From Vallitaleaceae bacterium 9-2 (lineage in GTDB: Bacteria; Bacillota; Clostridia; Lachnospirales; Vallitaleaceae), in contig CP121691.1 of NCBI GenBank assembly GCA_038396585.1, positions 3,472,001-3,536,000 of the forward strand: 64,000 nucleotides of DNA, in the 5' to 3' direction. The notes under the pieces are model-generated. The model had not been told where the DNA came from, made no database searches, and was given only the letters and a program-made list of their open reading frames with translations. Below, piece after piece: positions 4,405 through 31,939 of this stretch; positions within the stretch are counted from its first letter, which is position 1; each line of letters opens with the position of its first letter. The position numbers and the translations under genes are program-made.

Positions 4405-4455
4405 AAAAAACATAAGCTTGCATCAACAAAATGGTTAATACAAGCTTATGTTTTT
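4405..4455. terminator. Bidirectional terminator between permease and fucose operon
   Basis: AACATAAGCTTG (4409-4420) pairs with CAAGCTTATGTT (4441-4452), flanked by A and T runs on both sides. It lies between the convergent 3' ends of the permease and the sugar kinase, so it can end both transcripts. Confidence 0.85.
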
Positions 4456-4472: not shown

Positions 4473-5846
4473 TTATAGCGATGCTTCTAACACTTGCACA
4501 CGCTCATCTTCTTTGATTTTTCCTAATGCAATAAATTGTTCTGTAATATTACCAAGGGCTGTAGCTTCCTTCGATCCAAAAATCAGCTTTTTCTTGCTGT
4601 ATTTTTCAATCAGCTGGCAAAGTAACTGATCCCTCACACCGCCTCCAAACATACATACTTGGTCATAATGTTTATCTACTGCTTCTTCTAGCTCTGACAA
4701 AGTCTTGGCTATTTGCTTGGCAAGACTCTCTTCAATGACGCGAACAATTTCACCAACGGTGTTTGGCACTTGCTGATTGGTCTCTTGACAAAACTGTTGA
4801 ACTTTAACCGGCATATCTCCCGGTTCAAAGAATCGCGTATCATAAATATCAATAATACTATTAATGGATGCTTCACGTGCAACTTCAACCATTTCACCAA
4901 AGCCAATATTCATACCATTGTTTTCCCAATAGCGCTTAGATTCTTGTAAAATCCACAGACCCACATGATTTTTCAACAAGTTAACTGATGGATATCTTCC
5001 ACCTTCATTGGTCAAGCCATACTCCATCACTTTGGCATTCATGGTCATCTTTTCTTGCTTGGACCCAACAATAATCCAGGTACCTGTTGCAATAAAAAGA
5101 TAATCATCCTCCATCGGTAATCCTTGAAGAGCCAGCGCCGTATCATGGCTTGTTACAGATATCACATCAAACGTCTGAACACCTAGCTCTTTTGTGATCT
5201 CCTCTTTGACTGCCCCTAGATTCGTACCTGATGGCGTAATTGGCATAAAAAGGGAACGGTTAAACCCTAGATCCTCCATAAGTTTTTGGTTCCAATCCAT
5301 CGTCTTGTAGTCCAAAAGCTGTGTGGTCGTTGCCATACTATACTCTGATAATTTTTTTCCTGTTAAAAAATAATTAAATAAGTCCGGTGTATTTAAAATA
5401 GCGGCCGCTTGATCCCAGCGAATATAGCGATCAACCATAAACTGGTTAATCGTGTTGTAAGAAACAAGATCCATACCTGTATTTTCTTTTAACGTCTCTT
5501 CATCATACTTTTCCAACAACAGTTCCATTCCTCTAGTACACCGTTCATCGCGATAATGAATCGGATTACCCATAAGCTCTCCTTGGGTGTCAAGAACTCC
5601 ATAATCTACTCCCCATGAGTCTATGCCAACACTTTGAATTTTAAATCCTTGGTTTTCTGCTTTAATCAATGCTGTCTTTAATTCAAAGAGTAATCGCGGA
5701 AAATCCCAATACATATAATTGTTCATTCTTACCGGATTATTTGCAAAACGATGCACTTCATGAAGAACAATCTTACCGCGATTGTATTCCCCTACAATCG
5801 CGCGTCCGTTACTTGCACCTAGGTCAAAGGCTAATACTTGCATCAA
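4473..5846 (-). CDS. FGGY-family sugar kinase, probable L-fuculokinase
   Basis: A 457-residue FGGY carbohydrate kinase. The N-terminal phosphate-binding motif DLGASNGR and the SWGVDYG segment match the rhamnulokinase/fuculokinase branch. SHDTALAL and the ATGTW segment are family landmarks, and MFGGGVRDQLL near residue 405 is the C-terminal ATP-binding region. It would phosphorylate L-fuculose at C1. Function is assigned from position, 14 bp downstream of fucI and last in the operon; by similarity it resembles the rhamnulokinase at 44984-46438. It may act on both ketoses. Confidence 0.82.
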   Translation of the reverse strand: MMQVLAFDLGASNGRAIVGEYNRGKIVLHEVHRFANNPVRMNNYMYWDFPRLLFELKTALIKAENQGFKIQSVGIDSWGVDYGVLDTQGELMGNPIHYRDERCTRGMELLLEKYDEETLKENTGMDLVSYNTINQFMVDRYIRWDQAAAILNTPDLFNYFLTGKKLSEYSMATTTQLLDYKTMDWNQKLMEDLGFNRSLFMPITPSGTNLGAVKEEITKELGVQTFDVISVTSHDTALALQGLPMEDDYLFIATGTWIIVGSKQEKMTMNAKVMEYGLTNEGGRYPSVNLLKNHVGLWILQESKRYWENNGMNIGFGEMVEVAREASINSIIDIYDTRFFEPGDMPVKVQQFCQETNQQVPNTVGEIVRVIEESLAKQIAKTLSELEEAVDKHYDQVCMFGGGVRDQLLCQLIEKYSKKKLIFGSKEATALGNITEQFIALGKIKEDERVQVLEASL

Positions 5847-5860: not shown

Positions 5861-7648
5861 TTATTTTTTGTATAACGCTCCATATGTCTGGCACGCTCTA
5901 AAATCTGCACCTTCCAAATCTTTTGTTCCAAAGCCACTCCATGCTTTTGGTCTAAAGATACGGCTCTCATCAACGTTATGCATACTTACAGGAATTCTAA
6001 GCATTGATGCTAATGTGATTAATTGGTCTCCAATATGTCCATAGCTGATAGCACCATGATTCGCTCCCCATGTGTTCATTACAGAATATACATCCTTAAA
6101 TGCACCTTCGCCTGTTAGATTTGGTGCAAACCATGTTGTTGGCCATGCCGGATCGGTTCTTTGGTTAAGCACTTCATGAACATCGCCTGGAAGTTCTACT
6201 GTATATCCTTCAGCGATTTGTAGTACAGGACCCAATCCTTTGATGATATTGACACGAGACATTGTCACTGGCATGTTTTCACGTGTTGTAAAGTTTGCAG
6301 AGTATCCACCACCACGGAAGTACTCATTATTCGCAGGACAAAAACGTGTTGCATCTATACAACGTTTAACTTCTTCTTCTTTAATTTCCCAATAAGGTTT
6401 CATGACTGGCTGTCCGTTAGCATCACTTTGTTGTCCGGTTCCATCAAGCGTTGTTGAACCACTGTTAATTAAGTGAATAATTCCATTGGCCGCTTTTCCT
6501 TCCAATTCATGACCTGTCACACGTTTTACAGATTCTGGACTCCAGTATGTACGTACATCAGAAAAAATCTGTGCAGTTCCGGTAAGTAGATGACCAAATA
6601 ACATAGGCACACCATTTAAACTATCATTTTCTGTTGCCACAACAAATGGCTCACGAATACCGTTCCAGTCAAAAGATGAGTTAAGCATCGTCTCTAAGAA
6701 GTCTCCATTTGGAAGATAGTCAATCCACTGACGTTGTCCTTGGAATCCCCCTGCAATTGCATGATGTCCGCACGCTTCTTCTGCAAAGCCTAGCTCAATA
6801 AGTTTTGGATTTCCAATCATTAAGTCTCTAAAGATAATCGTCATCTTAACCACGTATTCCCAGTACTCATCAAGTTGTTCACGGCTAAATGGCTTTTTAT
6901 TATAATCCGGTCCTTCTTGGCAATTTTCTCTTACCCATGCAATAGCTTTCTCATATTCTTCTTCATCATATATTTTTTCTTGGATACGGCGAGAGATTTC
7001 ACACATATCAATGTACTCATTACGCATACCTAGGTAATCATTAAAGAAATTATTATCAACGATAGATCCAGCGATTCCCATTGAAACAGTTCCAACAGAT
7101 AAATACGCCTTGTCTCGCATTGTTGTTACTGCGATTGCAGACTTCACGAAAAGCAACATCTTATCTTGAACATCTGCCGGTATAGTTGTATCATCATTAT
7201 CTTGAACATCTTCACCATATATGGTAAATACAGGAAGACCCAATTGATCATGTCCTGCTGCTGCTGCCGCAAGATAAACTGCACCTGGACGCTCTGTACC
7301 ATTAAATCCCCAGATTGCCTTTGGTCGCATCATATTCATATCCAATGTCTCTGTACCATAACACCAACAAGGTGTTACTGTTAAGGATACGCCAACGCCC
7401 TCACGTTGGAATTTTTCTTCGCATGCTGCCGCTTCTGCTACGCCACCAATAGTTGTATCTGCAATAACACACTCAACAGGCTCTCCGCTCGCATGCCGTA
7501 AATTTTCTTCGATAAATTTCGCTGCATTTTTCGCCATGTTCATTGTTTGATCTTCTAGAGATTCACGCACTCCACGACGACGACCATCAATGGTTGGTCG
7601 AATTCCAACTTTTGGTAAGCTACCGTTCAATCTGAATTTTTTTTCCAT
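5861..7648 (-). CDS. fucI: L-fucose isomerase
   Basis: A 595-residue protein, close to the 591 residues of E. coli FucI. It starts [20 protein letters not shown], the typical FucI N-terminus. The metal-binding glutamate lies in ATENDSLNG and the metal aspartate in [10 protein letters not shown] histidine in [10 protein letters not shown] completes the active site, with Mn2+ as cofactor in the family. The enzyme converts L-fucose to L-fuculose and often also D-arabinose to D-ribulose. It lies between the binding lipoprotein and the kinase, preceded by an intercistronic hairpin. Confidence 0.96.
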
Positions 7649-7754: not shown

Positions 7755-8801
7755 TTATTCATAAAGCACAGGGAATACATCTTCGCTGTCAATATTACTT
7801 GCATCATACCATACAAATCCTGTATCGATGTTTTCTTCTAATTCTTCACCGTTAACAGCTTTAACTGCCGCTTCAACTGCTTTGTATCCAATACCGATTG
7901 GGTCTTGAGAAATTGAACCAGCGATAACGCCTTCACGTACTGCGTCCATTTGTGCTTTACCTGAGTCATATCCTACTGCAACGATTTTACCTTCTAATCC
8001 AACTTCACGAATGGCATTAAGAACACCAACAATTGAACCTTCATTAGATCCGAAGAAACCGCTTAAGTCTGGATGTGCAGTAAACATTGCTTTGGCTACT
8101 TCTGTAGATTTTAATTGGTCACCATCTCCGTATTGAATGTCTACAATTTCGATATTTGGATATTTGTCTTCAATACGATCTTTGAATCCATCACGACGGT
8201 CAACACCTGTTTTTGATGTTTGGTCATGAACAACCATTCCGATTTTTCCTTCTTCGCCGATAAGTTCAGCCATTTTATCTGCTGCGTACATAGAAGCTGC
8301 ATAGTTGTCTGTTGCTGCTGTTGCTGCGATAAGCTCACTATCCACACCAGAGTCAAAACCTATAACCGGAATACCTTCTTCTGTTGCTCTTTCAATAAGT
8401 GGAATAACCGCTTTTGAATCTAGTGCTGCAAGACATAATGCGTCTGGATTTTTACTTAAAGCTGCTTCAACCATTTCGATTTGCTTGTCAACCATAGCTT
8501 CTGTTTCTGGTCCTTCAAAAGTAATGGTTACGCCATAATCAACTGCTGCTTGTTCAGCACCTTTTTTAACTGCTTGCCAGAATTGATGTTGGAAACCTTT
8601 TGAAACAATTGGAATGTAAAGTGGTTCATCGTCTGTTGCTTCATCCGTTGCTGTATCTTCTGTTGCTGTATCTTCCGCTGCCGTCGTTGTATCTGTCGTT
8701 GCATTGTCTGATGCGTTATCTGTCGCTTCCTCTTTCCCACATCCTGCTAAAAGCGCTAATGTTAACATCATAACCATCATTATACTTACTACTTTTTTCA
8801 T
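7755..8801 (-). CDS. Sugar-binding lipoprotein of CUT2 ABC transporter (probable fucose)
   Basis: A 348-residue protein of the RbsB/periplasmic-binding-protein-4 fold. The signal peptide ends in a lipobox (LALLAGCGK) with the acylated cysteine near residue 22, followed by a Thr/Asp/Glu-rich linker to about residue 60. The binding domain then starts with YIPIVSKGFQHQFWQAVKKG. The start at 8801 is preferred over an upstream ATG at 8852 because AGGAGG lies 8 nt before it and the signal peptide starts there. Upstream genes encode its permease and ATPase; downstream genes are fucI and the kinase, so L-fucose is the likely ligand. Confidence 0.87.
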   Translation of the reverse strand: MKKVVSIMMVMMLTLALLAGCGKEEATDNASDNATTDTTTAAEDTATEDTATDEATDDEPLYIPIVSKGFQHQFWQAVKKGAEQAAVDYGVTITFEGPETEAMVDKQIEMVEAALSKNPDALCLAALDSKAVIPLIERATEEGIPVIGFDSGVDSELIAATAATDNYAASMYAADKMAELIGEEGKIGMVVHDQTSKTGVDRRDGFKDRIEDKYPNIEIVDIQYGDGDQLKSTEVAKAMFTAHPDLSGFFGSNEGSIVGVLNAIREVGLEGKIVAVGYDSGKAQMDAVREGVIAGSISQDPIGIGYKAVEAAVKAVNGEELEENIDTGFVWYDASNIDSEDVFPVLYE

Positions 8802-8847
8802 ACCTTGTTTCCTCCTTTTATTTCTCATAATGAACTTAGTATATTTG

Positions 8848-8863
8848 AACAAGTTTCCTTGTT
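8848..8863 (-). other. Small hairpin between permease and binding-protein genes
   Basis: On the minus strand AACAAG and CTTGTT enclose a GAAA loop. It is short and not followed by a U-run. It may mark an RNA-processing point between the transporter genes. Confidence 0.35.
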
Positions 8864-8884: not shown

Positions 8885-9862
8885 TTACGCAGATTGCTTG
8901 TTACGTCGATAAATATCAACAAATACTGCTACAATAACAATAACTCCTGTTAATACTGTTTGCCATTCTTGAGGTACAGACATGATACGTAATCCATTTA
9001 ATAATACACTCATGATGAAGGCACCAATAACGGTTCCAGAGATTGTTCCTTTACCTCCACTAAGAGATGTCCCACCAATAACAACTGCTGCAATGGCGTC
9101 TAGCTCATATCCTTGTCCTAATGCCGGCTGCGCTGAATTTAATCTTGCTGCCATAAGCACTCCGGCTAGTCCCACAAAAGCACCTGTTAAACTGTGAATA
9201 ATAATTAACCATCGTTCTGTGTTGATTCCAGATAATCTTGTTGCTTGCAAGTTACTACCTATCGCAAAGTTAAATCGTCCAACAATCGTTTTGTTTAGAA
9301 TAATATGCGCAAGTATCGCCGCAAGAAAGAAGATGATCACTCCTGAAGGAATTCCAAAAAAAGTTGCTTTTGAAATATTTGCAAATTGTGGTGTATCAAT
9401 AAAGTAAATTGGTTTTGCTCCTGAAATAACTAGGGATAATCCTTTTGTTATCATCATCATACCTAGCGTTGCAATGAACGCCGGAATCTTTAATCTAGCT
9501 ACATTAAATCCGTTGATAAATCCAATAAGTGCTCCGGTAAGAATCCCTACAATCACACCTACAAAAATCGGCAAACCTAAAAAGGTAATCGCCACCCCTG
9601 TCATTACTGATGCAAACGTCATCCCGGTACCAATTGAAAGGTCAATTCCTCCGGTGATAATAACAAAGGTTACACCTACAGCCAAAACACCATTAACTGC
9701 TGTAGCCAATAATATACTAATAAGGTTAGAGCTTGTCATAAACACTGGTGATGCTAATGTAAAAAATAAGATGAGTAGTACTAATGCTCCAAGTGCCAAT
9801 AATTTTTGAGCTGCTCCTGATTTTAAAAAGCTTTTTTTGTGTGTCATGCTTACATCCGCCAT
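8885..9862 (-). CDS. CUT2 ABC transporter permease (probable fucose)
   Basis: A 325-residue membrane protein of the RbsC/branched-chain permease family with eight to ten hydrophobic helices. The cytoplasmic-loop motif GGTSLSGGKGTISGTVIGA near the C-terminus and the GGIDLSIGTGM segment near residue 75 are hallmarks of CUT2 permeases. The ATG at 9862 is chosen because GGAGG lies 6 nt upstream; the longer frame would overlap the ATPase gene. The ribosome-binding site overlaps the ATPase stop region, suggesting translational coupling. Confidence 0.88.
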   Translation of the reverse strand: MADVSMTHKKSFLKSGAAQKLLALGALVLLILFFTLASPVFMTSSNLISILLATAVNGVLAVGVTFVIITGGIDLSIGTGMTFASVMTGVAITFLGLPIFVGVIVGILTGALIGFINGFNVARLKIPAFIATLGMMMITKGLSLVISGAKPIYFIDTPQFANISKATFFGIPSGVIIFFLAAILAHIILNKTIVGRFNFAIGSNLQATRLSGINTERWLIIIHSLTGAFVGLAGVLMAARLNSAQPALGQGYELDAIAAVVIGGTSLSGGKGTISGTVIGAFIMSVLLNGLRIMSVPQEWQTVLTGVIVIVAVFVDIYRRNKQSA

Positions 9863-9875
9863 TTTTTCCTCCATT

Positions 9876-11378
9876 CTATGCCGTTCGATCCGTCGCACAT
9901 GTCATAATTCGTTCTTGTGTAGCTTCATTTCGCTTTAATTCTCCAGTGATCTTTCCTTCACACATAACCATAATGCGATGGCTCATCCGAAGAACTTCCG
10001 GCAATTCTGATGAAATCATAATAATCGACTTACCTTGATCGGCTAGTTCATTTAACAATTTGTATATCTCGCTCTTAGCACCAACATCAATACCACGTGT
10101 AGGCTCATCAAAGATTAGAACATCACAGTCTCTCGTTAACCATTTTCCAATAACTACTTTTTGTTGGTTTCCTCCTGAGAGATTTTTAACCAATTGTTTT
10201 CCACTTGGCGTTTTGATATCTAATGCTTCAATATATTTTGATGCATTGACCACTTCCTGGTCTTCCTTTAAAAATCCAAACTGATTACTAAATCTTGGCA
10301 TCGTCGCCATAGCAATATTCGTATTAACATCTAGTCCTAAGACAAGACCATAACGCTTTCTATCTTCTGACAAGTATCCGATTCCATTAGCTACTGCATC
10401 TTTTGGAGAACGTATATTGACTTTTTTACCTTTGATAAAAATATCTCCACTATCTTTTGCATCAGCTCCAAATAGGCATCTTGCAACTTCGGTACGTCCC
10501 GCACCCATCAACCCGGCAAAACCTAAGATTTCTCCTCTTCTTAATTGGAAACTGACATCCTTGACTTTTTTTCCACGTGTTAAGTTTTTGACTTCAAGGA
10601 TAATGTCACTGCTTTGTTCACGTTCTAAATCATGAACCTCTTCGTAAATCTCTCGTCCAACCATCATTGTGATGATTTCATCAATTGTCACTTCACTCAT
10701 GTTGCGCATGCCGACATACTCACCATCACGCATTACCGTTACTCGGTCACATATTTTCTTCAATTCTTCCATTCTGTGTGAGATATAGACAATACCAACA
10801 CCTTTTGCCTTAAGTTCTCGTATGATTCTAAAAAGTTCTTCAATCTCAGCCTCTGTTAACGCCGCTGTCGGTTCATCCATAATCAACACTTCTGAATTAA
10901 AGGATAACGCCTTTGCAATTTCAATCATCTGTTGTTGAGCAACCGTTAATCGATCCACCTTGACCGTTGGGTCAATCTTCACATTCATATTATCTAGTAA
11001 TTCTTTTGCCATTTTGTTTTGCAGTGCAGTATCGCAAAACAGGCCTTTAAATCGCATGGGTTCACGTCCGATGAAAATGTTTTCTGCAACTGTCAAATCC
11101 GGCATTAAGTTTAACTCTTGATGTATAATACTAATACCTAAGTCTTGAGCTGCTTTAGGAGAATGTACTTCCACTTCTTCTCCTTTGTAATAAATCTTTC
11201 CGCCATTCTTATCATGAACACCGGTTAACACTTTCATGAGCGTTGATTTTCCTGCACCATTTTCTCCGATGAGTGCGTGGACTTCTCCTTTATCAAGCTC
11301 GAACGAACATTCTTTTAATGCATGTACTCCTGGAAAATGTTTTTCAATATCTACCATCCGTACTACGTTTTCACCCAT
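9876..11378 (-). CDS. CUT2 ABC transporter ATPase (probable fucose)
   Basis: A 500-residue protein with two fused nucleotide-binding domains (RbsA type). NBD1 has Walker [10 protein letters not shown], a Q-loop, the signature region [15 protein letters not shown] and Walker [16 protein letters not shown]2 has GLMGAGRTE, with the usual Lys-to-Arg change of this family, the signature LSGGNQQKV and [13 protein letters not shown]. It is the first gene of the fucose operon. The start at 11378 has AGGTG/GGAGG spacing; the longer frame from 11411 lacks one. Confidence 0.92.
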
Positions 11379-11409
11379 TTTCTTCACCTCCGTTGACTTT
11401 CTTATATGC

Positions 11410-11466
11410 ATTATAACGAAAACAAAAGGTGAAAAAGTTAAAAATCTGACACAAAAAGTTAAAAAT
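11410..11466 (-). promoter_or_regulatory. Fucose operon promoter with two 14-bp direct repeats
   Basis: A -10 box TATAAT (minus, 11415-11410) has no good -35 box. Instead AAAAAGTTAAAAAT occurs twice on the plus strand, at 11432-11445 and 11453-11466, exactly 21 bp apart. The nearer copy sits where the -35 box should be. This is the arrangement expected for an AraC-type activator; the response regulator at 16032-17636 is the nearest candidate. Confidence 0.6.
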
Positions 11467-11584
11467 AGGGCTTATTCATGATTAATTGTCACCAAAAATG
11501 AACAATTAGCATTAAATAAACCCAAGAATTTTCACGCAATTTTAATATACCCCTCTTTATATTTTCACATTTTTTATAATATCA

Positions 11585-11613
11585 TTGCAAATACACACAA
11601 TTACGTGTATTCT
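11585..11613 (+). promoter_or_regulatory. Promoter of the antiporter gene
   Basis: TTGCAA (11585-11590), 17 bp, TATTCT (11608-11613). The inverted repeat AATACAC/GTGTATT overlaps the spacer and -10 box and may be an operator. Confidence 0.5.
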
Positions 11614-11659
11614 GTATCATAAGTATATCTTTCATATAGTATAAAAAAGGGGACTTTTC

Positions 11660-13261
11660 ATGATTAATCATCTTTTTATTTCATCCATTGTTATTATCCT
11701 TTCAATTGTCAGCAGCAAGTTTTCACAAAAAATCGGTATTCCTAGCTTGTTGCTGTTTATGGGTATAGGCGTATTTTTTGGTTCTGACGGTGTTGTTCGT
11801 ATACCTTTTGATAATTACCAGCTAGCTAAAACCATATGCTCTATTTCTCTTATTTTCATTATATTTTACGGCGGCTTTGGTACGCGTTGGCAAACAGCCA
11901 AACCCGTTGCCGTTAGAGCCCTTCTCATCTCTTCGATTGGCGTATTTATAACCGCCTTACTTGTAGGGCTTTTTTGTCATTTTCTTCTAAACATCAATCT
12001 ATTAGAGAGCTTTTTACTTGGTGCGGTTGTTAGTTCGACCGATGCTGCCTCTGTTTTTTCTATTCTAAAATCCAAGAAGCTTGCACTAAAAAATCAAACC
12101 GCTCCGCTGCTTGAATTAGAAAGCGGAAGCAACGACCCTGCCGCTTATATGCTTACGCTTATTATTTTAGAGATCATGAATGGCTCTGCAAGTTATGGAA
12201 AATATGTCTACATGATTATCGGTCAGTTTGTCATCGGAGCTTTGTGTGCTGTTGTACTAGCATATATCACGCTTTATCTATATCAAAGCTTTGAATTAAA
12301 ATCCAATGGTCTAGAGATTATATACTTTGTTGGGATGGTACTACTCTCTTTTTCTTTGCCGGAAAAAATAGGAGGCAACGGTTATCTTAGCACCTATATA
12401 TTTGGCATTATCGTTGGAAACCAGCATTTTAAAAACAAGCGTATCCTTATTCACTTTTTTGATGGACTTACAGGGCTTGTACAGATATGTATTTTCTTTT
12501 TGCTTGGTCTCTTAGCTTTCCCTTCCCAAATGCCTCAAATTTTATTAACCGCCTTGGCTATCACCGTTTTCTTAACTTTTTTTGCAAGACCCGTGACAAT
12601 GCTTACACTGTTAAAGCCTTTTGGGTGCCCTCTTAATCAGATTGGGCTCATCTCTTTTGCAGGGATTCGTGGTGCCTCTTCCATTGTTTTTGCCATCATT
12701 GCTATGGTAAGTCCTGCTTACTTAAAACATGATGTTTTTCACATTGTTTTTTGTATTGTTTTATTTTCCATCGCATTTCAAGGGACGCTTTTACCCTATG
12801 TTGCCCGAAAGTTAAATATGATTGATGCTGATGGTGATGTTTTGACAACCTTTACTGATTATCAGGAAGAAAATTCCATTCAATTGATTCGCTTACCTAT
12901 CTTCCATGATCACCCTTGGCATCTCCTCCCATTAAAAGCCTTGGAACTGCCTCCTCAAATGTTGGTGATTGCAATTTTAAAAGATGACACCATCATTATC
13001 CCTAATGGCAATACCGTTATTGAGTATAACGACACCATCCTTATAGCCGCTCCAGGATACCAAGACGTTGTAAAGCTTGAAGTCAATGAGATGACCATAA
13101 ACACTCGCCACGACTGGCGGCAAAAAAAAATCCACGCCATTAATATTGACCCTGATAGCTTGGTCGCCATTATAAAGCGTGGTAATGATATTATCGTTCC
13201 TAATGGAAACACCTTGATTAACGAAGATGACACCTTAGTTGTCGTTAGCAAATCTGAATAA
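11660..13261 (+). CDS. NhaP-type cation/proton antiporter with RCK-C domain
   Basis: A 533-residue protein of the CPA1 family. About twelve membrane helices fill residues 1-390, with the paired acidic residues in ESGSNDPAAY near residue 155 in the ion-binding helix. The earlier STDAASVFSIL segment is also characteristic. The C-terminal cytosolic part carries TrkA-C/RCK-C-like modules (LPPQMLVIAILKDDTIIIPNGNT and VAIIKRGNDIIVPNGNT), giving a two-copy regulatory unit as in NhaP2. It probably exchanges K+ or Na+ for protons. It is alone on the plus strand and convergent with the sensor operon (4-bp gap), so no metabolic link to fucose is shown. Confidence 0.85.
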   Translation: MINHLFISSIVIILSIVSSKFSQKIGIPSLLLFMGIGVFFGSDGVVRIPFDNYQLAKTICSISLIFIIFYGGFGTRWQTAKPVAVRALLISSIGVFITALLVGLFCHFLLNINLLESFLLGAVVSSTDAASVFSILKSKKLALKNQTAPLLELESGSNDPAAYMLTLIILEIMNGSASYGKYVYMIIGQFVIGALCAVVLAYITLYLYQSFELKSNGLEIIYFVGMVLLSFSLPEKIGGNGYLSTYIFGIIVGNQHFKNKRILIHFFDGLTGLVQICIFFLLGLLAFPSQMPQILLTALAITVFLTFFARPVTMLTLLKPFGCPLNQIGLISFAGIRGASSIVFAIIAMVSPAYLKHDVFHIVFCIVLFSIAFQGTLLPYVARKLNMIDADGDVLTTFTDYQEENSIQLIRLPIFHDHPWHLLPLKALELPPQMLVIAILKDDTIIIPNGNTVIEYNDTILIAAPGYQDVVKLEVNEMTINTRHDWRQKKIHAINIDPDSLVAIIKRGNDIIVPNGNTLINEDDTLVVVSKSE

Positions 13262-13265: not shown

Positions 13266-14255
13266 TTATCTCTCGGCAAAAGGAACAATTAATTTTTGAT
13301 TTTCAGGTAAAAACATGTTCTCCTTATTAATGAGTACGGCGCTGACATCCACCTGCCTTGGATCGTTGGTCTCTTGAACTTCTAAGGCTTCCTTGATGGC
13401 TAGGTATCCCATGTTAAAGGGTCTTTGTGCCATAGCCGCTTTGATAACATCTGTTTCTACAAAATAAGCCACACGTGTATTCATATCAAAACCAACAACA
13501 TGAACATCATCTTTGATCCCTAAATCATTGACCGCTTCCGCTGCTCCTTGTAACGAGACTTCGTTGGTTCCATATATCGCTACAATATCCGGATATGTTT
13601 CAACAATCTCTTTTGTATATTGATATGCAGTTTTAAGGTCATCATTGCTATAATAGACCGTTTGTTCTACAACAAGATTTTCAAACGGTTTCAAACCTTT
13701 TTTAAAGCCTTCCTCACGTTCAAAGGCTGAGTAAGTCCCTTTGACATGGGAAAGAATAACCACTCTACCTTCACGCTTGACCATGGTTCCAAGCTCATGA
13801 GCCAAGCGTTGCGAAGCCAACAGATTGTTCGTTGCAACGTAACTATGCTCTGCTTCAAACAGCGCATCCGAATCATAAGTAACCACCGTTATGCCTTGAT
13901 TAATGGCTTTTTGGCATACTTCTCCAATCCGTTCATAGTCCGTTGCCGCCACAGCGATAGCTGCCGGCTTCTTTTTTATTGCATTTTCAATGATTTCAAT
14001 TTGCTTTTCCACTTCCGTTTCATTTTTGGGTCCATCTACAACAACTTTGACCCCAAGCTCTGTCGCTGCCACTTTTGCCCCTTTGGCTACACTATTCCAA
14101 AAATCAATACCTACAGAAGTTTTAGTAATTAAATAAATGGTCTGTTGCTTTTTCCCTTCATAATCAAGGCGCTTCATCGCACCAATACTAATTCCAACCA
14201 GCAATACAAGAACCAGAAGAAGAAAATACGTCATTTTATTGCGAAACATTTTCAT
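13266..14255 (-). CDS. Membrane-anchored sugar-binding protein, probable sensor subunit
   Basis: A 329-residue RbsB-type binding protein. One N-terminal hydrophobic segment (about residues 9-28) has no lipobox cysteine, so it should stay tethered by an uncleaved helix. The binding domain resembles the transporter protein at 7755-8801 (GxxFWNSVAKGAKVAATELG; VDGPKNETEVEKQIE). No permease or ATPase accompanies it. Its start overlaps the histidine kinase gene by 20 bp. This is the arrangement of XylFII-LytS in clostridia, where such a protein senses sugar and activates the kinase. A fucose-type ligand is inferred from context. Confidence 0.82.
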   Translation of the reverse strand: MKMFRNKMTYFLLLVLVLLVGISIGAMKRLDYEGKKQQTIYLITKTSVGIDFWNSVAKGAKVAATELGVKVVVDGPKNETEVEKQIEIIENAIKKKPAAIAVAATDYERIGEVCQKAINQGITVVTYDSDALFEAEHSYVATNNLLASQRLAHELGTMVKREGRVVILSHVKGTYSAFEREEGFKKGLKPFENLVVEQTVYYSNDDLKTAYQYTKEIVETYPDIVAIYGTNEVSLQGAAEAVNDLGIKDDVHVVGFDMNTRVAYFVETDVIKAAMAQRPFNMGYLAIKEALEVQETNDPRQVDVSAVLINKENMFLPENQKLIVPFAER

Positions 14256-16029
14256 TCAAAGTACCTCCTGTCAAATAAGGCAAGCGTATTTTTACACATG
14301 TTCCTTCAAACATTTCACTTTGCACATCGATGCCATAGCGTTCACCATAATATAGCTTAATCCTCTGGTCTACATTATAGACACCGACACCTCCACTTTT
14401 TTTCTTGGATAAAATCTGTCCCGTTAGAAGCTGGCTAACGGTTTCTTCATCCATTCCTACCCCATCATCGCACACTTCAATACATATATTTTCTTCTTCC
14501 TGAACGGTCTCTTTATAGATATTCACATCAATGGTTCCTTTTCCAGGTAATTTCTTTAACCCATGATAAATAGCATTTTCAACAATAGGTTGAATAATAA
14601 TTTTGATAATACGTACAGGCAACAACTTCTCATCGATATGAATGTTATAATCGAGTTTTTCTCCATAGCGCATCTTTTGAATCGTTAAATAGCTTTCTAC
14701 ATGTTCAATCTCTTGCTTAATCGTAATAAATTCGTGCCCTTTACTAATACTTATGCGAAACAGTTTTGACAACGCCGACGTCATTTTGACGACTTCTGAA
14801 GATTTTCCGGCTTCTCCCATCCATACAATCGAATCCAATGTATTATATAAAAAATGGGGATTAATCTGGGCTTGCAATGCATCAAGATCTGATTTTCTTT
14901 TCATACGCTCAACTTCTTTATTCGTATCAATCAAAGTCTTAATACGGCGTGTCATAGTATTAAATGTATTGGTTAATATTCCCAGCTCATTTTGGCTTTC
15001 AATTTCCACTTGCACATTTAAGTCTCCTGCCTGAAATTCCGACATTCCTCGAAGCAGCGACTTGACCGGTCGCAAAATACTCCCTGCAATCATTGCCGAA
15101 AGGACCAGCGACACCATCAGTGTCACCATAATAATCACAATAAAAAATTCTCTTAACGTATCACTGTAACTGTTTAGATCTTGATTATAAATCTTGCCGA
15201 TAACTTTCCAGTTCGAATACTCTGAGTTGGTTACAACAAAATTCACAGTTTGACTATCATCCATGGTTTCTATGATTGTTTTTTGACTTTGTAAAAGTTC
15301 TTCAATGGGTTCTTCTTTTATTCCGCTATAAATCAATTCCAGCTTCGGGTGATAAATGTGATTACCGCTAGAATCAATGATAAATAAATACCCTTGTTCA
15401 CCAATAACAATACGACTTACCATATCTTCAATCAAACTAAAATTAAGGTCAATTAGAATCACCCCTAAAAGTTCTTCCCCATCATACACTGCTTTTGAAC
15501 AGGTAACCACCCAAGGATATTCTCCAAGTGCGATGTTTTGGATATGTGATTTTGAGATAACAAACGCTTCGGAATCTACGGCTTGTTTATAATATGGCTG
15601 CTCTAACGCATTGGCCGTTTCTTTAATGGTAGCTCCTGCATCGTTAGATAGAATCTCACCATCTGTTCGAATCAAATATATATTGAGAATATCTTCTCGC
15701 GTATCTAACAAAGTGTTTAAATAATCTCTAGCATGGGCTTCCTGCTTTTGGCCTGGCTGATGAAAGTACGCTAACACATTATCTGAAACGCGAATCCCTT
15801 CAATGGTAGTCTCAACGGTTCTTAGATAATAGTCCATGTCATAATTGACTTGATTAATCATTTTTAGTGTGGACTGTGCTGTATTTTCCCGAATGACACG
15901 GTTGGTTACTATATAAGATAATATCCCTACACTCGCAATTACTGTAACAATTAATATCCCGATGCCTACCGCTAGCGTTATCTGTATGCTATTCATAAAA
16001 CGCACGTCTTTATTCTTTCTTGAGCGCAT
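14236..16029 (-). CDS. LytS/YesM-type sensor histidine kinase
   Basis: A 597-residue kinase. Helix one is near residues 15-38, a Cache-like extracellular sensor spans about 40-295, and helix two lies near 300-322, followed by a HAMP domain. The His_kinase domain has the phospho-acceptor histidine in QINPHFLYNTLDSIVW. The HATPase domain carries the N-box ENAIYHGLKK and glycine box DDGVGMDEE. It should phosphorylate the response regulator encoded 3 bp upstream, and likely receives signal from the binding protein whose gene overlaps its 3' end. Confidence 0.92.
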   Translation of the reverse strand: MRSRKNKDVRFMNSIQITLAVGIGILIVTVIASVGILSYIVTNRVIRENTAQSTLKMINQVNYDMDYYLRTVETTIEGIRVSDNVLAYFHQPGQKQEAHARDYLNTLLDTREDILNIYLIRTDGEILSNDAGATIKETANALEQPYYKQAVDSEAFVISKSHIQNIALGEYPWVVTCSKAVYDGEELLGVILIDLNFSLIEDMVSRIVIGEQGYLFIIDSSGNHIYHPKLELIYSGIKEEPIEELLQSQKTIIETMDDSQTVNFVVTNSEYSNWKVIGKIYNQDLNSYSDTLREFFIVIIMVTLMVSLVLSAMIAGSILRPVKSLLRGMSEFQAGDLNVQVEIESQNELGILTNTFNTMTRRIKTLIDTNKEVERMKRKSDLDALQAQINPHFLYNTLDSIVWMGEAGKSSEVVKMTSALSKLFRISISKGHEFITIKQEIEHVESYLTIQKMRYGEKLDYNIHIDEKLLPVRIIKIIIQPIVENAIYHGLKKLPGKGTIDVNIYKETVQEEENICIEVCDDGVGMDEETVSQLLTGQILSKKKSGGVGVYNVDQRIKLYYGERYGIDVQSEMFEGTCVKIRLPYLTGGTLNENVSQ

Positions 16030-16031
16030 AA

Positions 16032-17636
16032 TTATTCCTTCCTATATTGGGATGGTGTCATTCCTACATTTTTACGAAAATTATAACTAAAGTAATGCGG
16101 ATCTTCATAGCCGATGGCTTGGGAGATTTCAAATACTTTCATCGTTGAATTCTTAAGTAATTCTTTGGCTTTTTTCATACGAAAATCGGTCAAATATTCT
16201 AAAAAGGTCTGTCCATTATGGCGTTTGAAAATTCGGGCAAAATAGCTGCTACTCACGTGTAGCTCTTCTGAAATCGTACTTAAATCAAGGTTTGTCTCTC
16301 CATAATGGGTTTCAATATATTGAATCGCTTGAAAGATTAATGTCGCCTTATCATCTTCTCTGTTTTGTTCAAGCTGCTTTAAAAGCTCCTCACTTTTTTC
16401 AATGATTTGCTCTTGCATCAACAAAAGGTCATCCATGCTCAATAACTCTTCAATCAAACGAAAATCTAGTGTTATACTCTCTTTTTTATCAACAATAAGT
16501 TGATTAGCTGTACTATAAATACGTGTAATCAACGTAAGAATCAAACTTTTAAATTCGCCTAGCTGAACTTTGTTGAACTTCAGCGTATCAAAATACAGTC
16601 GGATGTATTTACTTAGATTTTGCATATTGTTCACACGTATGGCTACTTCAATCTGCTCTAAGAATTCATTGGATTGGCGATGTCCTCTTGTGGAGCTTCG
16701 TTCTACATCCGTTTTTACAATAATCTGGTTGCCACCTTCTATTACTTTATATTCTAGCGCTGTCAAGGCATCTTTAAAGGAGTACTTAAGGTCCGAAAGA
16801 TTGCTATAACACTCTCCCATGCCTGCTACAACATCCATTTGATAAATATGACGTATACTCACAAGCATCTCATGCAAAATCTCATACGCTTTTTCACACG
16901 CTTTTTTTTCTTGATCAAAAACAAAACAAACAATGATTTTTCCATGGTCTCCCATGAGCAAATAGTGCTTTGGATAGTCTGCTATTACTTCTTTGCATAT
17001 ATTAAACAGTGCGAAGTGCAAAAGCGAATAATCTTCTCCCCAAAGGGTTTCACCTATTTCTTTTTTATTCACAATCTCAAGAACGCCAACAACATAGTCG
17101 GTTCCTACCGGGTTAAACCCTAACTCTTGACACGCTTCTTGAACGCGTACTTTTGGAATAAAACCAAGCAAAATATCATAGAGTAGCTTTTCTTGAAGAT
17201 ATTCCCGTCGTTTTTCATACTCCTTTTTTAGCCGATTTATATTGTTTTTTTCTGCTAGCTCTTGCTCGATATTATTGCGAATATCGACTAAAACTCCTGT
17301 TAATTCATCCTTAGTAATCGGTTTCAATAAATATTTATTTGCATTTAGCGAAATCGCTTCCTTGGCATATTCAAATTCATTATATCCTGTCAAAAAAACC
17401 ACTTTACAGTAGGTATCTTTTTGACGCACTCGCCGAACCAGTTCCAACCCATCAACAAAGGGCATGTAGATATCTGTAATCATGAGGTCAATCGCATGAT
17501 CTTCCAAATAGTTAAGTGCATCTTGACCATCTTCTGCCGCATAGACCACTTCATATCCTAACTCTTCCCAATTGATAATCGAAATTATCGCATCACGAAC
17601 AGGTAACTCATCTTCAACAATCAGAACTTTATACAT
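16032..17636 (-). CDS. YesN-type response regulator (REC plus AraC HTH)
   Basis: A 534-residue regulator. The receiver domain has acidic residues Glu8 and Asp9 and the phospho-acceptor Asp55 in ITDIYMP; a conserved Lys lies in NKYLLKPI. A long middle region of about 300 residues, common in YesN proteins, leads to a C-terminal AraC-type double HTH ending YSFNFRKNVGMTPSQYRK-like (here YFSYNFRKNVGMTPSQY). It is first in the sensor operon. Likely targets are the direct repeats at 11432-11466 in front of the fucose transporter. Confidence 0.92.
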   Translation of the reverse strand: MYKVLIVEDELPVRDAIISIINWEELGYEVVYAAEDGQDALNYLEDHAIDLMITDIYMPFVDGLELVRRVRQKDTYCKVVFLTGYNEFEYAKEAISLNANKYLLKPITKDELTGVLVDIRNNIEQELAEKNNINRLKKEYEKRREYLQEKLLYDILLGFIPKVRVQEACQELGFNPVGTDYVVGVLEIVNKKEIGETLWGEDYSLLHFALFNICKEVIADYPKHYLLMGDHGKIIVCFVFDQEKKACEKAYEILHEMLVSIRHIYQMDVVAGMGECYSNLSDLKYSFKDALTALEYKVIEGGNQIIVKTDVERSSTRGHRQSNEFLEQIEVAIRVNNMQNLSKYIRLYFDTLKFNKVQLGEFKSLILTLITRIYSTANQLIVDKKESITLDFRLIEELLSMDDLLLMQEQIIEKSEELLKQLEQNREDDKATLIFQAIQYIETHYGETNLDLSTISEELHVSSSYFARIFKRHNGQTFLEYLTDFRMKKAKELLKNSTMKVFEISQAIGYEDPHYFSYNFRKNVGMTPSQYRKE

Positions 17637-17824: not shown

Positions 17825-18250
17825 CTATTTTACAACACCTTTTTTCAAAATGATGTTGGCATACAGAGCTTGTTCACCTGTCGCAACCACTGCATAGGCT
17901 TTTTTTGCTCGTTCATAAAAGGCAAAGCGTTCAACCATTTCTAATTGATGGTCCCCTTCTTTATCCTTAATAACTCGCTTATAGTCTTCCCAAATGGTTG
18001 GCTTGTAATCATCTCCTGGCGTGACCTCCATCAATGCAACGGGTGCCTCTACATACGTATCTAAAGGCATTAATTCAAGAATCGCCTCAAGGATTGTTGG
18101 AATGTCATGTCCATCTAAGCGAATGAGTCGCTGAGCCATGGAAGCTGCAGGAAAATTACCATCTGAGATGACAATCTCATCGCTGTGTCCCATCTCCATA
18201 AGAACTTTTAATAATTCTGGTGATAAAATACTTGGAATCTTTTTTAACAT
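17825..18250 (-). CDS. fucU: L-fucose mutarotase (FucU/RbsD family)
   Basis: A 141-residue protein with the family signature MGHSDEIVISDGNFPA near residues 20-36, containing the catalytic-region His and Asp. A further conserved block FYERAKKAYAVVATGE holds the tyrosine. It interconverts alpha- and beta-L-fucopyranose so that transporter and isomerase can use all anomers. The start at 18250 is chosen because AGGAGG lies 6 nt upstream and homologues begin MLK; the longer frame would overlap pduT. It closes the microcompartment operon, tying it to fucose. Confidence 0.93.
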   Translation of the reverse strand: MLKKIPSILSPELLKVLMEMGHSDEIVISDGNFPAASMAQRLIRLDGHDIPTILEAILELMPLDTYVEAPVALMEVTPGDDYKPTIWEDYKRVIKDKEGDHQLEMVERFAFYERAKKAYAVVATGEQALYANIILKKGVVK

Positions 18251-18261
18251 TGTGCTCCTCC

Positions 18262-18822
18262 TTATATGAATTCTTGCCAAAGCCTTGGATCCGGTCTTGG
18301 AATAACCGAGGTCTGCAGTAGCAAGCCTTTTTCAATAACACTTTTCTTCGCCTTTTCAATAGATGCTTCTACACTGGATAACTCGCCGGAAAATACTACA
18401 TAGGCTTTTCCGCTAATCCCTTTAGCGATACGAATCTCTAATATGCTCACCGGAGTGGTCTTGACCACATCATCGGCCACTTCAAAAATCGAAGCAACTG
18501 AATAGGTTTCCATAACACCGACCGCTTCTATGCCTTCAACATCTCCACTACAATTTAGTCCTTCAAAAATAGCTGGGTGAGGATTCCCCAATATACAGTG
18601 GTCAACTAAGATAGCGGAGTGCTCATCCGATATTCCTCGTTCTATCGCCGCATTAACCGCACTTAAATCACCTCGAATTAAAACCACATACTTTCCAGGG
18701 CATACCGGTTTTGCAAAGACAAGGTCGACATCGGCTGTCTTTAGCACGTCATCTGCCGCCTTCATTCCTGTGGCTATGGAACGATATTCTAATACTCCTA
18801 ATGATTGTCTAGACTCTGTCAT
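18262..18822 (-). CDS. pduT: Microcompartment shell protein PduT-like (tandem BMC, Fe-S)
   Basis: A 186-residue protein with two BMC domains (about residues 7-90 and 97-180; SLGVLEYRSIATGM and EAVGVMETYSVASI), forming a trimeric pseudohexamer. Cys41 in KPVCPGK matches the cysteine that holds a 4Fe-4S cluster at the PduT pore. The C-terminus TSVIPRPDPRLWQ is also PduT-like. It probably passes electrons across the shell, with PduS as partner, whose gene overlaps by 4 bp. It is the only BMC-T protein in the operon. Confidence 0.92.
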   Translation of the reverse strand: MTESRQSLGVLEYRSIATGMKAADDVLKTADVDLVFAKPVCPGKYVVLIRGDLSAVNAAIERGISDEHSAILVDHCILGNPHPAIFEGLNCSGDVEGIEAVGVMETYSVASIFEVADDVVKTTPVSILEIRIAKGISGKAYVVFSGELSSVEASIEKAKKSVIEKGLLLQTSVIPRPDPRLWQEFI

Positions 18823-20147
18823 AATTCTAACCTCTCAATACAAATGTATTCATCATTAACTTCGTTGACTCTACCACTGATACTTGCATGAATATGGGCA
18901 CTTAATCCGCCTTCTACAGCTTGTGCAATCCGCATATTCTCTTTTACATTCTGGCCAATTGTAACTAACGGTTTTGCCGCCTGTCCGATATGTTGCTGCA
19001 ATGGAATCTTCACTGCACCTACAGGGATGGATTCTGGATAAAAAGGTAAGGGTACATCATATTTTTTGAGTCCAAGACGCATAACAAGCCGTCCTGCCGG
19101 AACTCTTCGATAGTCACGATCGGGATGCATATCAGTACAATCTGTCGGCGATGGTCTTACACCATTTTTTGCAAATTCACGCTTGACCATAACCATCATT
19201 TTTCTTGGAGACAGGTCATGGTGACAAGCATAGAGCTCACACACACCGCAATCTACACACCCAAGGGCTGTCTCTAACACACTACTGTTATCAATCACTC
19301 CATTAGCCATAGCGTTCATCAATTTATGCGGTTCCACATTATGTCCCATCAGATGCCTTGGGCACATGTCCGTACATGCACGACACTGAGAACACGATGC
19401 CATAATACGTGTTAAATGTTTTATATTGACATCCTCCATTTGCTGAATCAGAGAATGATTTTCTTCAAGTACAATTAATGCTTTGGTATTTTTTTTAACG
19501 ACATCACGAATAGTTGTCAAGCTTCCCGTCATCGGTCCACCTATAATGATTTTATGGTTTTTATTACGTCGTTTTCCTAACGTGTCCACCATATATTCCA
19601 CTGATGTACCTATTGGAACATAGTACGTTCCCGGTGCATCAACCTCCCCTGTCACTGTGACAAAGGTATGGGTCACATTCTTGTCTTCAAATAGTTTCTG
19701 ATATATGTTATATAATGTTTCAGTATTTGTAACCATGACATGATGTTGTATAGGAATTTCACCTTTTTTTACAACAATGCCTGTAATTTCTTCTATAAGT
19801 ATTACTTCATCGCCAATCGGATAAACGTTTGGCAAGGGATAGATTTCTATGTTTGGATAGTTTTTTGCTGCTGCATTTAAATGTTCAATCACATCAACAT
19901 ATTTATCCTTAATGCCAATAACTCCTTTTTTGATTGCGAGCGCTTCCATTAACTGATGCAAGCTTTTGATCAAAGGTTCGGCATATTCTTTTGCCAAATT
20001 TTTATCCACTTGTAAAAGGGGTTCACACTCTGCATTGTTAATAATCAGGGTGTCGATTGCTCCTTTTAGTTTTACATGGGTTGGAAATCCAGCTCCACCT
20101 GCACCAACAATACCGGCATCAAATATTTTTTCAATGATGTTTTCCAT
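18819..20147 (-). CDS. pduS: PduS-like Fe-S flavoprotein, cobalamin reductase
   Basis: A 442-residue RnfC-like protein. The N-terminal GAGGAGFPTHVK motif binds NADH/FMN, an SLBB domain sits near residues 165-215, and two ferredoxin-type clusters follow: CSQCRACTDMCPRHL and CVDCGVCELYACHHD. PduS reduces Co(III/II)balamin to supply PduO and sustain the dehydratase. It lies between pduN and pduT, as expected of a partner docking on PduT. Length agrees with Salmonella PduS (451). Confidence 0.92.
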   Translation of the reverse strand: MENIIEKIFDAGIVGAGGAGFPTHVKLKGAIDTLIINNAECEPLLQVDKNLAKEYAEPLIKSLHQLMEALAIKKGVIGIKDKYVDVIEHLNAAAKNYPNIEIYPLPNVYPIGDEVILIEEITGIVVKKGEIPIQHHVMVTNTETLYNIYQKLFEDKNVTHTFVTVTGEVDAPGTYYVPIGTSVEYMVDTLGKRRNKNHKIIIGGPMTGSLTTIRDVVKKNTKALIVLEENHSLIQQMEDVNIKHLTRIMASCSQCRACTDMCPRHLMGHNVEPHKLMNAMANGVIDNSSVLETALGCVDCGVCELYACHHDLSPRKMMVMVKREFAKNGVRPSPTDCTDMHPDRDYRRVPAGRLVMRLGLKKYDVPLPFYPESIPVGAVKIPLQQHIGQAAKPLVTIGQNVKENMRIAQAVEGGLSAHIHASISGRVNEVNDEYICIERLEL

Positions 20148-20163
20148 AGCTGCTCACCTTTCA

Positions 20164-20433
20164 CTAGTTAAAAATATCTAGATCGTTTTCTTCATCAACA
20201 ATACCTACAATTGAGGCATCCACCGGGGCTTCACTATTTGGCATACTGATTCTTGCACTACTTCCTGTTGCAATTAATACATGTTCACCTATGCCGGCTC
20301 CAACTGTATCTACAGCAATAATTGTTTCTTTTGTATTGTTTTTCTTGATTTCACATACTAAAAATTTATTGCCTATCAACCGCTCATGCTTGCGCGTTGA
20401 GACGATTCGACCAATCACTTTTCCAATAATCAT
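20164..20433 (-). CDS. pduN: Microcompartment vertex protein (EutN/CcmL/PduN family)
   Basis: An 89-residue BMC-P protein that would form pentamers closing the polyhedral vertices. The start MIIGKVIGRIVSTRKHERLIG and the segment DTVGAGIGEHVLIATGSSAR are family hallmarks. The ATG at 20433 is chosen because GGAG lies 7 nt before it and all family members begin here; the longer frame to 20511 crosses a hairpin. The only BMC-P gene in the window. Confidence 0.93.
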   Translation of the reverse strand: MIIGKVIGRIVSTRKHERLIGNKFLVCEIKKNNTKETIIAVDTVGAGIGEHVLIATGSSARISMPNSEAPVDASIVGIVDEENDLDIFN

Positions 20434-20469
20434 GATAATTCTCCATTCTATCGCATTCACTAGGTACGC

Positions 20470-20505
20470 CAATTGTTGGATACAACATGCTATATCCAAC
20501 AATTG
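20470..20505 (-). other. Intercistronic hairpin between pduL and pduN
   Basis: CAATTGTTGGATA (20470-20482) is perfectly complementary to TATCCAACAATTG (20493-20505), 13 bp around a 10-nt loop. No U-tract follows on the minus strand. It sits in the only sizeable gap of this part of the operon and may set a lower output for the genes downstream (pentamer, PduS, PduT). Confidence 0.6.
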
Positions 20506-20514
20506 CCGCAAGCG

Positions 20515-21189
20515 CTAATGAACGATGGTCACTTGATCACTTTGTTGAATACCAAATGCATTGGCTTCATCTGTATCAATATGCATTTCAAGTCGATATG
20601 TGTCATGAACACGTACTAAGACATTGCTTAAGATGCCTTTTCGCGTTCCATCTTGTGTCTTGACGGATACAATTTGTTTATCTTTGACACCTAGGCGCTT
20701 TGCATCTTCCGGCGTCATATGAATATGACGCTGTGCAACGATACACCCTTGTTCTAAGCGAACAGCTCCTGCCGGACCGACAATGGTAATGGGCATAGAC
20801 CCTTCAATATCACCGCTTTCGCGAATAGGAGCATTGAGCCCAAGTTGTCTAGCATCTGTTTTTGAAACTTCAACTTGTGTCGCACTACGTTCTGGTCCTA
20901 GAATTCTTACATTCTCAATTACCCGCAAATTCATTCCTACAATTGTCACACGTTCTTCTGCAGCAAATTGTCCACCCATCAGCTCTTTTTTTACATGTAG
21001 CTGATGGCCCTTTCCAAAGAGGATGTCCAAATGTTCACGTGTCACATGTAGATGTCTAGCTGATACACCTACTGGAACAGTCAATGCAGGTTGAGATTGT
21101 TTGAGTACGTTTGCAGTTGTTTTTTGCTTGATTTGCTGCATAACAGCTTCTTTAACAAGCGCTTCTAATGCATTCGTTGTTACTGCCAT
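20515..21189 (-). CDS. pduL: Phosphate propanoyltransferase PduL
   Basis: A 224-residue protein with two beta-barrel domains. Zinc/CoA-site histidines lie in SARHLHVT and QRHIHMTPEDA. It converts propionyl-CoA plus phosphate to propionyl phosphate and recycles CoA inside the compartment. The first 20 residues (TNALEALVKEAVMQQIKQ) form an amphipathic helix typical of an encapsulation peptide, followed by a linker, so it is likely lumenal. No propionate kinase is present in the operon; a housekeeping acetate kinase would have to finish the step. Confidence 0.95.
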   Translation of the reverse strand: MAVTTNALEALVKEAVMQQIKQKTTANVLKQSQPALTVPVGVSARHLHVTREHLDILFGKGHQLHVKKELMGGQFAAEERVTIVGMNLRVIENVRILGPERSATQVEVSKTDARQLGLNAPIRESGDIEGSMPITIVGPAGAVRLEQGCIVAQRHIHMTPEDAKRLGVKDKQIVSVKTQDGTRKGILSNVLVRVHDTYRLEMHIDTDEANAFGIQQSDQVTIVH

Positions 21190-21215
21190 ATTAATCTCAA
21201 CCTTTCAGACTTTGC

Positions 21216-21596: not shown

Positions 21597-21624
21597 GATA
21601 GACCACCTTTGCTAAAGTCAACGC

Positions 21625-21921: not shown

Positions 21922-21933
21922 GCATTCACCTAC

Positions 21934-22209: not shown

Positions 22210-22248
22210 AATATAATCCTCCTATAAATTATCATCATTATTATGTGT

Positions 22249-22554: not shown

Positions 22555-22576
22555 AATATAACCTCATTACCTATTT

Positions 22577-23776: not shown

Positions 23777-23788
23777 GTTTACCTCCTT

Positions 23789-26190: not shown

Positions 26191-26202
26191 ATCTTCACCA
26201 CC

Positions 26203-28337: not shown

Positions 28338-28353
28338 ATCATCACCATTTTCT

Positions 28354-28752: not shown

Positions 28753-28761
28753 ACTTACCTC

Positions 28762-29412: not shown

Positions 29413-29425
29413 CTATGACACCTCC

Positions 29426-31099: not shown

Positions 31100-31101
31100 C
31101 T

Positions 31102-31875: not shown

Positions 31876-31901
31876 AGCTTACCTCCAAATAATTCTTGAT
31901 T

Positions 31902-31925: not shown

Positions 31926-31939
31926 TTTATTTCATTCTA

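Follow-up and report, generated by a model that had tools for sequence, protein, structure and literature searches.

A predicted class II AraC-type operator at a fucose operon promoter and its recurrence beside YesN-type three-component systems in related bacteria

Described relatives of the system

In Escherichia coli, AraC at araI1-araI2 contacts a pair of direct half-sites with a spacing of ~21 bp, the one closer to the promoter lying over the -35 (class II), but unlike the system considered here it is a one-component regulator that binds arabinose itself. For YesN-type regulators, binding sites are to our knowledge seldom known. What is known, from the sections of the literature at hand, is that three-component systems with YesN/AraC regulators exist beside ABC transporters (CuaDSR and others) and that 21-bp tandem sites have been described in Bacteroides. 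In its available excerpts, CuaDSR of Ruminiclostridium cellulolyticum resembles the present system in that a sugar-binding protein, a kinase and a YesN/AraC regulator are encoded beside the ABC transporter operon they control (PMC5663094, PMC10384115), and CuaR activates the cuaABC promoter, the reporter being fused to the region before the transporter genes (PMC5663094). However, the sugar is cellobiose there and a deoxy-sugar is proposed here, and CuaD is a predicted lipoprotein whereas the sensor protein described below has a hydrophobic N-terminus and no lipobox. The term "direct repeat" is absent from both texts, and the excerpts name no operator.

Tandem sites have been predicted in other systems. 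According to the excerpts of PMC8579813, AraC-type two-component regulators of Caldicellulosiruptor bescii, which are predicted activators, have tandem-repeat sites upstream of the promoter in 3/5 cases; these were sought at a 21- or 32-bp period, and the methods speak of "inverted repeats" that are evidently tandem. The GxgRS/GxgABC system in the same excerpts shares with ours a local AraC-family two-component regulator and a monosaccharide ABC transporter as target, although fucose is assigned in that organism to a separate regulator, FucR; the letters of the sites do not appear in these excerpts. The hybrid two-component systems (HTCS) of Bacteroides thetaiotaomicron likewise have an AraC-type output domain and 21-bp direct repeats: in the portion of PMC3878776 consulted, motifs are predicted for 16/36 regulators, all of them direct repeats with a mean distance of 21 bp. 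In HTCS, however, kinase and regulator are fused, the systems are confined to Bacteroidetes and the signals are mostly oligosaccharides. XydS/R of Clostridium cellulolyticum also has an AraC-HTH regulator, and gel shifts show its effector domain binding in front of its targets, but the targets are hemicellulase genes and the excerpts list common words in two regions and name no single site (PMC3572039). In Clostridium phytofermentans, a fucose ABC transporter is up 58-82-fold on fucose, again according to an excerpt (PMC3557285). Our literature search, supplements aside, returned neither a fucose three-component system in clostridia nor an operator of this kind.

The locus analysed here lies in a 64-kb stretch of the genome of Vallitaleaceae bacterium 9-2 (the window), in which a pair of direct repeats precedes an operon for an ABC transporter, L-fucose isomerase and a sugar kinase. 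By comparison of related loci, the repeat pair is very probably an operator, and we consider it likely that the YesN-type regulator encoded nearby activates the operon through this class II AraC-type site as part of a sugar-sensing three-component system. The part most worth following is the near-fixed geometry of the site across the class.

The repeat pair and its promoter

The word AAAAAGTTAAAAAT is present twice, exactly, at 11432-11445 and 11453-11466, which is a period of 21 bp; read on the minus strand, the strand of the operon, the pair is ATTTTTAACTTTTT at 11445-11432 and 11466-11453. Both copies stand letter for letter where the initial annotation had placed them. It had also described a good -10, a missing -35 and a near copy lying over the -35 place, and the promoter does have this form: the hexamer that would serve as -35, at a spacer of 16-18 nt, falls inside or at the edge of the near copy, where the best match to TTGACA is 1/6, and a promoter scan needing 4/6 at -35 called no promoter at the fucose-operon repeat. 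The perfection of the 14 bp fared less well. It holds in the window, but in the two nearest relatives the period is kept with only 12/14 identities (L033) or fewer (L034). Moreover, the run of T in the far copy directly abuts a hairpin, by eye, in three relatives (L033, L034 and L083) and resembles the tail of a terminator, so that the perfection of the 14-mer is partly accidental and deserves no emphasis. What is conserved is the core TTYAAYTTTT. Features of the locus are collected in Table 1.

Table 1. Features of the fucose operon, its promoter and the adjacent regulatory genes (positions in the window)
Feature	Position	Strand	Remarks
Strong terminator-like hairpin 3' of the kinase gene, likely operon end	4408..4453	-	
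FGGY sugar kinase	4473..5846	-	Scores better with rhamnulokinase than with fuculokinase models, under the cut-off of each
L-fucose isomerase FucI	5861..7648	-	TIGR01089, 1055.7 bits (cut-off 850)
Transport sugar-binding protein (Peripla_BP_4)	7755..8852	-	Lipobox LLAGC by eye
ABC transporter permease, ribose type	8885..9898	-	Below equivalog cut-offs
Sugar ABC transporter ATPase, RbsA-like, first operon gene	9876..11378	-	
Ribosome-binding site and likely start of the ATPase gene	11376..11391	-	From sequence: GGAGGTG 11391-11385, ATG from 11378
-10 hexamer TATAAT	11415-11410	-	Begins 24 nt past the first base of the near AAC core; 24/25 in relatives
Predicted operator, 34 bp, matrix-scored	11430..11463	-	Two TTYAAYTTTT cores plus spacer; leave-clade-out rank 1/517,294
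Near copy, promoter-proximal half-site	11432..11445	-	Spans the -35 place; ~ -42 to -29 (predicted start ~11403)
Far copy, upstream half-site	11453..11466	-	~ -63 to -50 if the start is ~11403 (inferred); period 21 recurs in relatives
Sensor-type sugar-binding protein (Peripla_BP_4), third component	13266..14255	-	N-terminal hydrophobic segment, no lipobox cysteine (by eye)
Sensor histidine kinase	14236..16029	-	dCache, HAMP, His_kinase, HATPase_c
YesN-type response regulator, proposed activator	16032..17636	-	Receiver, GGDEF-like middle, AraC-type HTH

How far the letters themselves set this pair apart depends on what is counted. The window holds 3 exact direct repeats of at least 14 bp at a period of 15-40, the other two being intragenic, and such a repeat arose in 0/20 first-order Markov resamples of the whole window; for the 248-bp intergenic region, an exact repeat arose in 0.06% of 20,000 first-order resamples, and in 0.01% at a period of 20-22. 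The genome search proposed by the initial annotation returned the exact pair, with up to 3 mismatches, at a single place in the 3.81-Mb genome, against 0 for a reversed-pattern control. With up to 2 mismatches allowed, the window has 5 occurrences of the single 14-mer where chance predicts 4.1, and at the same tolerance the shorter pair AACTTTTT-N13-AACTTTTT is matched 61 times in the genome, compared with 176 times for its reversed control. As the single copy and the short pair are common by chance, conservation had to decide. In sequence terms, it is conserved position and spacing that carry the case, rather than letters alone. This also applies to the degenerate pattern TTYAAYTTTT-N11-TTYAAYTTTT, which was composed after the sites had been seen and is thus a description and not a test: it has 26 exact places in 20/392 genomes of the order, fewer than the ~41 of its reversed control (hand count), and is not enriched across the order, while it occurs once each, at the transporter promoter, in 5/8 genomes with the sensor protein (G000, G146, G001, G004 and G034).

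Two other kinds of site were considered for the window, and neither was retained. Matches to consensus patterns of the CcpA cre box (75 found, 74.6 expected) and of the CodY box (11 found, 10.2 expected) are at chance level there. One cre-like word with two mismatches overlaps the near copy.

Recurrence of the site beside related transporter operons

L-fucose isomerase is found in 42/146 genomes, and the sensor protein has matches at E <= 1e-60 in 8/392 genomes of the order (own genome included in both counts). The whole locus is present in G001 (L033) and G013 (L034), with regulator, kinase and sensor protein 77-85% identical to those of the window. Five further loci encode a regulator, kinase and sensor protein followed by transporter, permease and binding protein, with regulators 27-41% identical: L080 (G004), L081 (G010, with genes in between), L082 (G014), L083 (G034) and L085 (G021). 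A similar two-core motif is present in the transporter promoter of all seven other loci, across regulators 27-85% identical. This first reading of the eight loci, later used for training, was made by eye; in the five further promoters, the two cores are 21 bp apart clearly in four and weakly in L085. The three nearest loci also keep the spacer letters GTGTCAGA, and do not keep the stretch between near copy and -10. In a separate contig search, the sensor protein of L052 (MAG UBA4039) was 100% identical, and two binding proteins were 27-29% identical.

The reading by eye was followed by a leave-clade-out test, in which a 34-column matrix built from the other clades scored every available position of the same genome. 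The site ranks 1 in 6/8 cases, namely the window (1 of 517,294), L034, L080, L081, L082 and L083; the misses are L033 at rank 2 and L085 at rank 15, a failure. The better-scoring match in the genome of L033, in L032, was taken as a chance one; by eye, it falls within a LacI-type reading frame that precedes a second fucI copy. For the 8 aligned promoters, which had been chosen partly by eye for period 21, no other period between 13 and 40 reaches the z of 6.7 obtained at 21 (next 3.4 at 40). The -10 had been kept out of the matrix, and its offset, counted between the first bases of near core and hexamer, is 24 nt in 5 of these loci and 25 nt in 3, including L085 with 4/6 matches.

At the level of the class, a profile of the sensor protein has matches in 17/391 genomes, own included. 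From these, 19 stretches were fetched and 11 were scored with the matrix as it stood, without retraining. Those left unscored end at contig boundaries (L126, L139), have no ATPase gene that we could find (L131, L143), have the transporter on the opposite strand (L132) or have no kinase or regulator that we could find (L134, L137); L135, with a less similar transporter (46%) that starts 1.5 kb past the sensor gene, was also left out at first. This omission was inconsistent with the retention of L130 (a 2.1-kb gap) and L129 (sensor gene elsewhere), and L135 was therefore scored later. In the 11 independent loci, the transporter promoter site ranks 1 in four (L125, L128, L133 and L142) and at most 3 in six, with L130 at rank 2 and L129 at rank 3; L127, L136, L138, L140 and L141 have ranks 11 to 191. 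The summed log10 rank is 7.68, compared with 15.6 +/- 1.75 for 500 column-permuted matrices, none of which scored as low (0/500). With L135 included (rank 85, a miss), the 12 loci give 9.6 against 17.4 +/- 1.8, again with 0/500 as low. Together with L085 at rank 15, the ranks of 11-191 for L127, L135, L136, L138, L140 and L141 mean that either the motif drifts or the matrix fails in distant members.

The geometry is repeated in these independent promoters. Among periods of 13-40, 21 again scores highest in the 11 of them (z 3.9; next 3.3 at 26), and a -10 at offset 25 scores 5.43/6 in 7 sites (the six loci ranked at most 3 and L127, which was positioned manually), the next-best offset scoring 3.43; L136, L138, L140 and L141 are outside this profile because no site was found there. 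Over the 15 sites profiled, the -10 is at offset 24 or 25 throughout, two of them having only 4/6 matches. In L125 (G714), three tandem half-sites at 21-bp steps, not two, precede the transporter gene (L125:6325-6379, minus strand).

The site also goes with the regulatory genes. Training loci excluded, it ranks 1 in 6/14 transporter loci with regulatory genes and in 0/15 without a sensor gene directly upstream (Fisher p = 0.006), and at most 3 in 8/14 against 0/15 (p = 0.0007), although these p values are rough, as the backgrounds differ in length, the site-less transporters are mostly more distant and relatives are not independent. These counts derive from 30 transporter loci, comprising 8 training loci, 4 with a sensor gene, 3 regulator-only loci that were set aside and 15 without. 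The 14 loci of the first group are the 4 plus 10 of the independent set, L133 and L155 being one locus, and with L135 the first count becomes 6/15. "Without" is defined as no sensor gene within 1.5 kb upstream of the transporter; in that group, the sequence upstream is <400 bp long in L156 and L173, a sensor-like match is present beyond a permease gene in L158, and a YesN-type regulator lies ~4 kb away in L158 and L171. The set-aside loci are L154 (rank 1), L157 (rank 12) and L162 (rank 1, apparently within the regulator gene). In L160, a sensor gene is present and the rank is only 5. In L153 (G067), the near-perfect pair ATATTCGACTATT / ATATTCAACTATT, 21 bp apart, stands upstream of the transporter gene and beside the sensor gene, with no good -10 at offset 24 or 25.

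The proposed switch, its alternatives and its sugar

Since many related bacteria have this site at this spacing, it is apparently a real switch of a known kind. The layout that the initial annotation had proposed, a class II AraC-type activator site, gains from the comparison: two direct half-sites at period 21, the near one over a weak -35 and at a near-fixed distance from the -10, recur in several genera and families next to genes for a YesN-type regulator, a kinase and a sensor protein, and did not turn up in the 15 related transporter promoters that lack a sensor gene directly upstream. The same comparison favours the regulator it had named as candidate, since the site recurs beside such regulators. 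The three genes (13266-17636) are on one strand, overlapping or a few bases apart, and their order is kept in relatives; the Pfam matches for the receiver, the AraC-type HTH and the sensor, His_kinase and ATPase domains of the kinase are all above cut-offs, and 8 aligned orthologues of the regulator share aspartates 9, 50 and 55, threonine 83 and lysine 105 without exception. What sequence comparison supports is the site, its 21-bp period, the near-fixed -10 distance, the missing -35 and the co-occurrence with regulatory genes, from which we infer binding, phosphorylation and activation by the regulator, and fucose as the signal.

In the proposed mechanism, the membrane-anchored sugar-binding protein would detect an extracellular deoxy-sugar, most likely L-fucose, and would switch on the dCache histidine kinase, which would phosphorylate the response regulator. 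The half-sites would then be occupied by two regulator monomers arranged in tandem on one face of the DNA, of which the near one would take the place of the missing -35 box and bring RNA polymerase to the -10 (class II activation). As a result, the genes for the ABC transporter, FucI and the kinase would be transcribed from ~11403 to 4408. In this species, a sodium/proton-antiporter-type gene (11660-13261, plus strand) lies between the sensor gene and the fucose operon, also in the same-species genome G146, which is why the regulator gene is 4.6 kb from the repeats; in L033 and L034 no antiporter gene intervenes and the sensor gene ends ~115-130 bp before the transporter gene. The hairpin present 3' of the sensor gene in L033/L034 is missing before the far copy in the window.

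Three other explanations of the repeats deserve attention. The site could be a true AraC-type operator that is bound by another member of the family, such as the cupin-AraC regulator encoded at 32081-33088 beside the microcompartment operon, which has an AraC-type HTH and belongs to the same sugar cluster. We regard this as unlikely, as the site adjoins a YesN-type regulator, kinase and sensor protein in L080-L083, L125, L128, L133 and L142, and the operon promoter next to the cupin-AraC gene has a best matrix score of only -3.3, compared with 38.9 at the site. Alternatively, the repeats could help RNA polymerase directly, as an UP element or phased A-tracts with no dedicated regulator, which would fit A/T-rich repeats phased at 21 bp just upstream of a promoter without a -35. 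However, a matrix from other clades picks 1 of 517,294 positions in an A/T-rich genome, column-permuted matrices of equal composition do worse on the independent loci, the AAY core is kept (in the nearest relatives the spacer too), and none of the 15 related transporter promoters without a sensor gene directly upstream has the site at rank 1, all of which makes a purely structural role very unlikely.

It is more improbable again, and by our estimate barely credible, that a T-rich terminator tail in front of the promoter gave rise to the repeat by chance. By eye, the run of T in the far copy does come straight after the hairpin behind the sensor gene in L033, L034 and L083, but the window keeps the repeat without a listed hairpin before the far copy, and L080 and L082 keep the site with a terminator-like hairpin, by eye, further upstream. 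Such a tail could not yield the near copy or the AAY cores, and resampled intergenic sequence produces a repeat of this kind only at the low rate given above. Activation by the adjacent YesN-type regulator remains the preferred explanation of the pair.

The sugar is less sure than the switch. The operon holds an L-fucose isomerase gene scoring above the TIGR01089 cut-off, as expected of L-fucose catabolism, and fucose is proposed as the signal because fucI is in or near the operon in several loci: within it in the window, L033 and L034, just past the transporter in L142, and nearby in L085/L038 and L131. Outside the genus, however, 10/12 site-bearing loci have no fucI directly 3' of the transporter within the stretch examined, and it is for this reason that we hold the sugar with less confidence. 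No fucI match was found in the stretches searched for L080-L083, and L085 also carries a rhamnose isomerase gene, so that rhamnose or another sugar is possible. The FGGY kinase of the operon scores 373 bits with the rhamnulokinase model and 134 bits with the fuculokinase model, each below its cut-off. A rhamnose isomerase gene is present in the same window (43720-44964, minus strand). A second fucI-kinase pair is present in genome G001 on a different contig (L032:13076-16236), with no transporter or sensor-protein match in the surrounding 18 kb.

Within the window and 10 other stretches of the genome, the site is the one target as far as we looked, the next-best matrix score being 12.3 (intragenic). 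The regulator's own promoter has no site (best score -8.2), and neither does that of the microcompartment operon. The latter belongs to a cluster at 17825-32080 encoding BMC shell domains, phosphate propanoyltransferase, aldehyde dehydrogenase, a diol-dehydratase-type large subunit and a class II aldolase, with a good TTGACA-17-TACTAT promoter of its own (31968-31940) and the cupin-AraC regulator gene upstream. This suggests two switches in one fucose pathway, with uptake and isomerase under the one described here and the microcompartment operon, with its site-less promoter, under another.

A broader reading, to which we would give an even chance, is that a deoxy-sugar three-component system present in many families of the class keeps an operator code of TTYAAY half-sites every 21 bp, the nearest of them at 24/25 nt relative to the -10; some lineages would have added a half-site (L125 has three), and the flanking letters would drift with the regulator. 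If it is true, operators of the large and poorly mapped YesN-type class would be predictable from sequence. A site with a fixed period, a near-fixed -10 distance and a named candidate regulator is readily testable. The regulator has 12 matches at E <= 1e-30 in this genome and 1 to 23 each in 25/41 genomes searched. Among the matches listed for the other YesN-type loci of the genome (10 of 11), a period-21 repeat with 10/12 letters stands at two, L119 and, in an A-rich form, L118. The one in L119 (AAATAGTGACCT / AAATAATAACCT, 21 bp apart) is upstream of the kinase gene (11031-12818, minus strand) of a kinase-regulator pair and is possibly the operator of a second YesN-type system.
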